From NCBI GenBank assembly GCA_945901085.1, contig CAMDJV010000005.1, positions 1 to 64,000 on the forward strand: a stretch of 64,000 nucleotides of DNA. Reading direction: 5' to 3'. Below, piece by piece: positions 49,098-50,776 of this stretch; position 1 is the stretch's first letter; each line of letters starts with the position of its first letter. The notes beneath the pieces are model-generated. The model saw only the letters and a program-made list of their open reading frames with translations, ran no database searches and was not told the DNA's origin. The stretch is from Rhodovarius crocodyli (GTDB taxonomy: Bacteria; Pseudomonadota; Alphaproteobacteria; Acetobacterales; Acetobacteraceae). The position numbers and the translations under genes were made by a program.

Positions 49098-50270
49098 ATG
49101 CAGGCCATTCTCACCGTCATCGGCACGCGGCCGGAGGCCATCAAAATGGCGCCCCTGCTGCTGGCCATGCGGGCTGCGCCGGGCATCCGCTCCCTGCTCT
49201 GCGTCACCGGCCAGCATCGCCATATGCTCGATGGCGCCTTGGCCGAATTCGGCCTGGTCGCGGATTATGACCTCGACATCATGCGCCCCGGCCAGGACCT
49301 GACCTGGATCACCACCGCAGTGCTGGCAGGGCTGCGCCCCATCCTGGCTGAAACAAGGCCCGATTGGCTGCTCGTGCATGGCGATACCACCACCGCCATG
49401 GCCGCCGCCATGGCCGGGTTCTATGCCGGCCTGCCCATCGCCCATATCGAGGCCGGGCTGCGCAGCCATGATCTGGGCCGCCCATTCCCCGAGGAAATGA
49501 ACCGGGTGGTGGTGGACCGTATGGCCAGCCTGCTCTTCGCCCCCACCGAAGGTGCGCGGCGCAACCTGCTGCGCGAAAACGTGCCACAAGGACGAATTGT
49601 GGTCACCGGCAACACCGCGGTGGATGCCGTGCTGGCCATGCGCGGGCGCATTCTGGCCGACCCCGCGCTGGCTGCAAGGCTGGCGGCGGCGCTGCCCGAA
49701 TTGGCGCCGGGGCGGCGCGTCATTCTGGTCACCCTCCACCGGCGGGAGAATTTCGGCGCGCCATTTGCGGCCATCTGCCAGGCCCTGCTGCAGCTCGCGG
49801 CGCGTGGCGATGTGGAGGTGGTCTATCCCCTCCATCTCAACCCAGCCGTGCGCGAGCCGGCGCTGTGCCTGCTGGGTGGCGTGCCGCATATCCATCTTCT
49901 GCCACCGCTGGGCTATGCCGCCTTCACCCATCTGCTGATGCGCGCAGCGGTGGTGCTCACCGATAGCGGCGGCATTCAGGAAGAGGCGCCCTCGCTGGGC
50001 AAGCCGGTGCTGGTGCTGCGCGAGGTGACCGAGCGGCCGGAGGCGGTGAAGGCCGGCACCGCGCAGCTTGTGGGCACCGATACGGCGCAAATCCTGGCCG
50101 CCACCAACCGGCTGCTGGACCACCCGGCCCCGCAGCGCGAGCGCGCCAACCCCTATGGCGATGGCCAGGCGGCCGCGCGCATCCTCGCCAGGCTGCGTCA
50201 GGCCAACCAGCGCACCACCAGCCTCGCACCGGCTAGGGCATCGGCAGGGGTGATGCTCCCCGCCGGATGA
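49098..50270 (+). CDS. wecB: UDP-N-acetylglucosamine 2-epimerase (non-hydrolysing)
   Basis: Converts UDP-GlcNAc to UDP-ManNAc for surface polysaccharide. The 390-residue GT-B-like protein has GTRPEAIKMAPL, VHGDTTTAMAAAM, HIEAGLRSHD, FPEEMNRVVVD and the substrate loop DSGGIQEEAPSLGKP. The C-terminal tail past about 360 is low in conservation. Together with the GT2 gene it suggests a small glycan locus. Confidence 0.94.
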   Translation: MQAILTVIGTRPEAIKMAPLLLAMRAAPGIRSLLCVTGQHRHMLDGALAEFGLVADYDLDIMRPGQDLTWITTAVLAGLRPILAETRPDWLLVHGDTTTAMAAAMAGFYAGLPIAHIEAGLRSHDLGRPFPEEMNRVVVDRMASLLFAPTEGARRNLLRENVPQGRIVVTGNTAVDAVLAMRGRILADPALAARLAAALPELAPGRRVILVTLHRRENFGAPFAAICQALLQLAARGDVEVVYPLHLNPAVREPALCLLGGVPHIHLLPPLGYAAFTHLLMRAAVVLTDSGGIQEEAPSLGKPVLVLREVTERPEAVKAGTAQLVGTDTAQILAATNRLLDHPAPQRERANPYGDGQAAARILARLRQANQRTTSLAPARASAGVMLPAG

Positions 50271-50382
50271 TGGGCCACACCGCCCAGGCAGGGAAAAACC
50301 TCCATGGCGCTGGGGCAGATATGGGCCATAACGCAGGAACCATGCCCGGCGGGGCCAGGGCTGAGACCATCCTCTGCACCGC

Positions 50383-50411
50383 TTGAGAACATTTAGCGAA
50401 CATGCGATAAG
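50383..50411 (+). promoter_or_regulatory. Promoter overlapping a LexA-type box
   Basis: TTGAGA (50383-50388) and GATAAG (50406-50411) are spaced by 17 bases, matching 5/6 and 4/6 of the sigma-70 consensus. Inside, GAAC (50387-50390), seven bases, then GAAC (50398-50401) matches the alphaproteobacterial SOS box GAAC-N7-GAAC bound by LexA. The box overlaps the -35 and spacer, ideal for repression. It is 37 bases before the small unknown gene. Confidence 0.6.
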
Positions 50412-50437
50412 GCTGCGTTTCGGAAAGGACAAGGCCC

Positions 50438-50776
50438 ATGGCCGTCAAACCCGCGCGGCCGGTCAAGCCGGTGAATGCCGCCCTCGCCCGGCTGCTGGCC
50501 CTGGCGGCCAAGGGCGTGGTGCCCCTGCGCATGGCGCGCGAGGTGGAGGGGATTGTGGCCGAATGGCAGGCGATGCCACAGGCCGACCCCTATGAGATCA
50601 AGGAGCGCCTCGGCGAGATGCATGAACTGCTGGTCCAAGGCGTGGCCGATGCCGAGGAGCAGGTGAGTGACACCGACCCGGCGGATGCGCCGGCGGTGAA
50701 GCAGGCGGCCATCACGCTCGCAGCGCTGGTGGCCACGCGCGATGCCACAATGCGGGCCATGGGCGGGCTGGGTTAG
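50438..50776 (+). CDS. Small protein of unknown function behind a LexA-like box
   Basis: A 112-residue, all-helical, Ala-rich soluble protein. N-terminus is basic (MAVKPARPVKPVN). Charged heptad-like stretches at about 32-75 (MAREVEGIVAEW, IKERLGEMHELL) and a C-terminal Ala-rich helix. No transmembrane segment or catalytic motif. GGAAAGGA lies upstream. I do not recognise the family. The promoter overlaps a GAAC-N7-GAAC box, suggesting SOS control; a DNA-damage role is inference. It is followed by two palindromes. Confidence 0.65.
   Translation: MAVKPARPVKPVNAALARLLALAAKGVVPLRMAREVEGIVAEWQAMPQADPYEIKERLGEMHELLVQGVADAEEQVSDTDPADAPAVKQAAITLAALVATRDATMRAMGGLG

Follow-up and report, generated by a model that had tools for sequence, protein, structure and literature searches.

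Is the single LexA-type box that lies in front of a small gene of no known family a genuine control element of the SOS response, and if so, to what manner of gene does it belong? The question is raised by a locus in the window (the whole 64,000-nucleotide stretch of a Rhodovarius crocodyli contig that was analysed), where the initial annotation had proposed a candidate SOS-regulated gene. The features of the locus are as follows, C66 being another contig of the same genome and G004 the genome with the nearest relative of the gene.

50215-50350, minus strand: remnant that matches the 3' part of an ORF on C66 at 85% identity (the ORF is hydrolase-like, a name read from the sequence) and overlaps the 3' end of the epimerase ORF
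50348-50499, plus strand: stretch in common with a broken copy of the gene on C66, 79% identical by sequence comparison
50383-50388, plus strand: putative -35 element TTGAGA, overlapped by the box; read from the sequence, with T(T/A)TGAG-like letters kept here in relatives; strict scan negative
50387-50401, plus strand: predicted LexA box GAACATTTAGCGAAC, an exact match to GAAC-N7-GAAC
50402-50411, plus strand: putative -10 region ATGCGATAAG; relatives have ATG(C/A)TA at this place, judged by column frequencies; strict scan negative
50422-50429, plus strand: putative ribosome binding site GGAAAGGA, read from the sequence
50438-50776, plus strand: 112-aa protein with four predicted helices, of an Acetobacteraceae prophage family; defined by the ORF, its homologues, the structural model and dN/dS of 0.24 against the G004 copy

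The box and its promoter

The GAAC-N7-GAAC box reported previously is present, ends 36 bp 5' of the ATG, and is the sole perfect match within the window. Taken alone, it is no better than chance: 0.41 matches are expected per window, at least one appears in 38 of 100 shuffles, and the whole genome holds 44 matches as compared to 48 for a reversed control pattern. The same motif is found upstream of the genome's own single lexA and single recA (GAACCTTACTAGAAC and GAACATTATCAGAAC), and it is kept in the promoters of orthologues of the window gene. When the promoters of homologues were clustered at 60% identity, a perfect box within 120 bp was present in 25 of the resulting 42 clusters, whereas the box rate of the whole genome predicts about 0.06, a comparison that does not translate into a strict probability since homologous promoters are not fully independent. 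The recurrence of a perfect box in 25 of 42 such dissimilar promoters nonetheless indicates a conserved promoter element rather than a chance occurrence, and a chance box was rejected on this conservation.

Among 88 distinct copies placed in a tree, a perfect box precedes 44 of the 47 that lie in phage context and 21 of the 34 that are solitary (with no phage marker within 9 kb); five further solitary copies have a box one base off perfect, and 8 of the 34 have no box of any kind, one divergent subfamily being among these. The box lies mostly 47-66 bp before the ATG. In the aligned promoters the half-sites are fixed while the spacer drifts, and T(T/A)TGAG-like letters are kept 5' of the box and ATG(C/A)TA 3' of it, which argues that the operator is placed over the -35 element and spacer. 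As to the "good sigma-70 promoter" of the initial annotation, its letters and spacing are all there (TTGAGA, a 17-nt spacer, and GATAAG at 50406-50411), but its strength was not borne out: a strict sigma-70 scan of the window promoter region detected no promoter, and the -10-like element conserved in relatives lies directly 3' of the box, aligning with 50402-50407 and not with GATAAG. The check that had been suggested, whether relatives keep the box before the orthologue, thus returned perfect boxes before most homologues in many genera, and together with the boxes at lexA and recA it supports the proposal of an SOS-regulated gene. On this comparative evidence we consider LexA/SOS regulation of the window gene to be highly likely, and the gene would very probably be switched on by DNA damage.

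A gene family of temperate phages

A protein search detected homologues in 14 of 147 relatives, and a profile search found them in 73 of the 397 genomes from the order, with up to six copies per genome. The sample of other alphaproteobacterial genomes gave no homologue, and within this sampling the family was seen only in Acetobacteraceae, where named hosts include Roseomonas, Neoroseomonas, Falsiroseomonas, Siccirubricoccus, Belnapia, Dankookia, Humitalea and Roseococcus. The protein is encoded on 30 IMG/VR viral contigs; the INPHARED phages gave no family match, and two weak matches lie on Roseomonas plasmids. On the IMG/VR contigs and in many prophages the gene order is constant: a DEAD helicase (phrog_16), a small protein, a DNA primase (phrog_3022), and then the family gene with its box, followed 3' by ParB-DNA methyltransferase (phrog_498) twice, a small protein (phrog_14596) and the terminase large subunit (phrog_15). 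In some family prophages an HU-like gene comes next in order, and a large serine recombinase is found at the integration end. Judged by these contexts, the family is a temperate-phage gene of the junction between replication and packaging functions. The small terminase subunit was considered as an identity for the protein and set aside, given that another candidate adjoins the large subunit (L090:14783-15307, itself without a Pfam match). One family copy with a perfect box lies on a 6.3-kb contig binned as Burkholderiaceae (L150), an assignment that is probably a binning error.

The same phages have a second LexA-type site, in their immunity region. When seven family prophages were viewed over a wider range, a box was seen a short distance 5' of an ImmA/IrrE-type M78 peptidase gene in four, and beside an S24 repressor in one. 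In IMG/VR a perfect box precedes 54 of 59 distinct M78 relatives (loci L239-L310), mostly at -57/-58, and stands in the divergent promoter of 10 of 29 S24 relatives; at least ten contigs are common to the M78 list and the family list. The M78 gene at L225:1490-2218 (with its box region from 1433) matches PF06114 at 23.8 bits against a cut-off of 22, and its product has an HExxH-type metal-binding motif, AHELGHLLF, while prophage L220 encodes an S24-domain repressor (PF00717). A gene with sigma-70 region 2 is divergent from the M78 peptidase gene in L225. Roseomonas sp. AR75 holds two prophages, one with S24 and one with M78 immunity genes, whose family proteins are 96% identical, and near-identity of this kind beside two immunity types argues against an antirepressor specific to one repressor. 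The M78 gene, with a LexA box of its own, would be the likelier antirepressor of the two.

The window copy and other solitary copies

The window gene is flanked by a UDP-GlcNAc 2-epimerase gene (PF02350) and a holA-like gene (named by context, its Pfam match being under the cut-off), with no phage genes around it, and most members of the genus lack it. A cellular gene at a conserved place was considered and rejected, as beyond the 3' end of holA the content differs in every genus member examined. The nearest relative, that of G004, is 78-79% identical and is likewise solitary with its box kept, at a different genomic place. The dN/dS of this pair is the 0.24 given above, a value that may stem in part from time spent in phage.

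Several parts of the same genome bear on the origin of the locus. Contig C66 carries a broken second copy (L351:94-1062), consisting of the promoter and the first ~27 codons fused to ParB-methylase, in which the box has decayed by two bases to GAACATTACACGACA; that the intact copy kept its box and the broken copy lost it constitutes a natural control, albeit a single instance. The segments 50215-50350 and 50348-50499 match two places on C66 about 8.9 kb apart, so that the window locus seems to be what rearrangement has left of such a region, and as the last epimerase residues are read from the first of these segments, the 3' end of the epimerase ORF may be altered. A resident prophage on contig C15 (L350:1-14528) has the usual order and keeps its replication genes; in the 19 kb examined there, neither the family gene nor a perfect LexA box was found. 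Another gene, L350:769-1599 on the plus strand, fills the place of the family gene in C15. Terminase fragments lie close to the ends of contigs C44 and C47, and on contig C22 (L235:6586-11005) the divergent promoter of an S24-type repressor contains a box, with a serine recombinase a short way off, a region that is probably another prophage end. Taken together, these sequences suggest that the window copy has survived, by itself, from prophage DNA that otherwise decayed, and that it was apparently retained under selection. Both the phage origin of the family and this solitary survival are aspects that the initial annotation missed.

Many other family copies are, like that of the window, solitary and intact, and the solitary clades have dN/dS of 0.04-0.27, indicative of purifying selection. 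In four Falsiroseomonas-type genomes (L161, L162, L165 and L166) the solitary copy directly precedes an FtsK-like gene (named from its sequence) in a shared gene order, with the box kept and its spacer drifting. In G067 (L237:2099-6041) one solitary copy is divergent from a dnaE2-like gene, a name also read from the sequence, with a single LexA box shared by the two; close by in L237 is an imuA-like gene that has a box of its own. In the tree, which has few columns and many unresolved forks, the solitary copies fall in several clades, which implies either repeated release from prophages or exchange of the gene between phage and host. A few probably belong to other mobile elements, among them L095, which adjoins an integrase, and L101, which has an endolysin-like gene in its vicinity.

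The protein and its possible role

The ORF is intact, with an ATG start and 112 codons, and the AlphaFold2 model of its product, built with 34 sequences, has four helices (11-24, 29-45, 51-78 and 84-110) at pLDDT 91.5 and pTM 0.81, with a basic N-terminus of low confidence and an acidic third helix. The protein had been described as helical and of no known family, and this holds: searches of Pfam, PHROGs, NCBIfam, PADLOC and PDB sequences gave no family, Foldseek with the model gave no significant match in PDB or BFVD (best E 1.5 and 0.31), and no account of the family came up in our literature searches. VIA-align hits with Z near 9 were discounted, as such helical hairpins are common and the scores fall short of what can be trusted for helical bundles. 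We therefore regard the family, with its predicted four-helix fold, as absent from the libraries that were searched.

In its working, the family gene appears most like the LexA-controlled loci of the Gifsy prophages, where a LexA site just downstream of the replication genes controls dinI and the antirepressor genes (GfoA, GfhA and GftA) (PMC3121763). As in those loci and in phage 186 Tum, we find a small prophage protein outside the immunity region under direct, here predicted, control by host LexA (PMC3121763). The differences are that no sequence family in common was found, that the same protein occurs beside different immunity systems and does not vary with the repressor type, that solitary chromosomal copies exist, and that a second LexA box lies in the immunity region. 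We do not claim membership of the Gifsy antirepressor or DinI families on this analogy.

DinI, an alpha/beta protein with a chromosomal copy, also invites comparison, being a small LexA-controlled protein (here predicted) that occurs in prophages and alone in chromosomes and that has an acidic helix. In DinI this helix is C-terminal, whereas the model of our family is all-helical with four helices, and no match to the DinI family model rose above cut-off in Pfam or NCBIfam. DinI is known as a LexA-controlled modulator of RecA, with homologues described in prophages (PMC3121763). A further parallel is offered by ImmA and MpaR, M78-family metalloproteases that act as antirepressors (PMC6872733, PMC12637031), in that an M78 peptidase is a companion gene in family prophages. 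The window gene itself, however, encodes no peptidase, and the M78 gene of family prophages is preceded by a host LexA box at -57/-58, while the studies of ImmA and MpaR describe activation linked to RecA/ssDNA or autoregulation by the element's own repressor (PMC6872733, PMC12637031).

We consider it likely that the window gene came from a prophage and forms a unit of its own, repressed by LexA and induced in SOS, and that its protein acts on a target common to its hosts. LexA bound at 50387-50401 would cover the -35 element and spacer and block transcription, RecA-driven self-cleavage of LexA after DNA damage would free the promoter, and the acidic four-helix protein would be made during SOS. 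In intact prophages the family gene would form one such unit at the replication/packaging junction and the immunity region would hold another, in which case two prophage promoters answer directly to host SOS and the family protein is made together with the LexA-controlled immunity unit. The window copy, presumably left by decayed prophage material and apparently kept under selection, stands alone. The protein stays the same whichever immunity type accompanies it, and hosts keep it as a solitary copy; both points favour a host-common target, such as a component of SOS/RecA, replication or division, over any one phage repressor. This element of the proposal is drawn from distribution and is tentative, somewhat short of an even chance. 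We would go no further than to suggest as a possibility, and one we rather doubt, that these proteins constitute an undescribed class of SOS effector, a LexA-controlled four-helix phage protein domesticated by several host lineages as a modulator of SOS or the cell cycle.

Among other explanations, an SOS antirepressor in the manner of GfoA/GftA or Tum, which binds and inactivates the phage repressor, would suit a small LexA-controlled protein placed just downstream of the replication genes as in Gifsy (PMC3121763). The two AR75 prophages, the likelier candidacy of the M78 gene and the persistence of solitary copies without phage neighbours make this role distinctly improbable. The constant place between the replication genes and the methylase/terminase genes would also befit a replication or late-phase accessory (a helicase/primase partner or late-operon factor) switched directly by SOS, with the solitary copies incidental, and a helical hairpin in the model resembles the helicase-binding domain of primase (5z51, Z 9.1), albeit among many unrelated chains and below the trust level. 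We hold such a role to be unlikely, in that several clades keep solitary copies with their box and low dN/dS, and the C15 prophage retains replication genes without the family gene.

The window copy may alternatively be a prophage fossil with no present function. It adjoins remnant DNA common to C66, in a genome with several fragments of the same phage type; the gene is missing from most of the genus, and its position differs between the nearest genomes. Set against this are the intact ORF and box, both lost in the C66 sister, along with the dN/dS against the solitary, box-bearing G004 copy, and we give the fossil reading a minor chance. We deem it very improbable that the GAAC-N7-GAAC sites serve a phage repressor as operators instead of host LexA. 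Some family prophages do have an S24-type repressor with the motif in its own divergent promoter, but the box is likewise present in the promoters of the host's lexA and recA, many box-bearing prophages have the M78 gene instead, and solitary copies keep the box.

Should the preferred reading of a LexA-controlled unit of prophage origin be correct, a widely kept gene family under predicted LexA control would be a new addition for Acetobacteraceae, for which our literature searches found no SOS-regulon study. It would furthermore define a group of temperate phages in which host LexA governs two distinct promoters, including one in front of an ImmA-type protease gene. The solitary copies under selection would allow a direct test of the idea that bacteria take over SOS genes from phages to respond to damage themselves.

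Two variants of the protein deserve mention. A copy in phage context (L091:1-2000) has a long C-terminal extension, giving 199 aa in all, and the divergent subfamily of L097, L098 and L100 encodes proteins of 101 aa that begin MSRSPAADLAPLIKLL and whose genes lack a LexA box, the copy in L100 being closely preceded by a tRNA-Ser gene.
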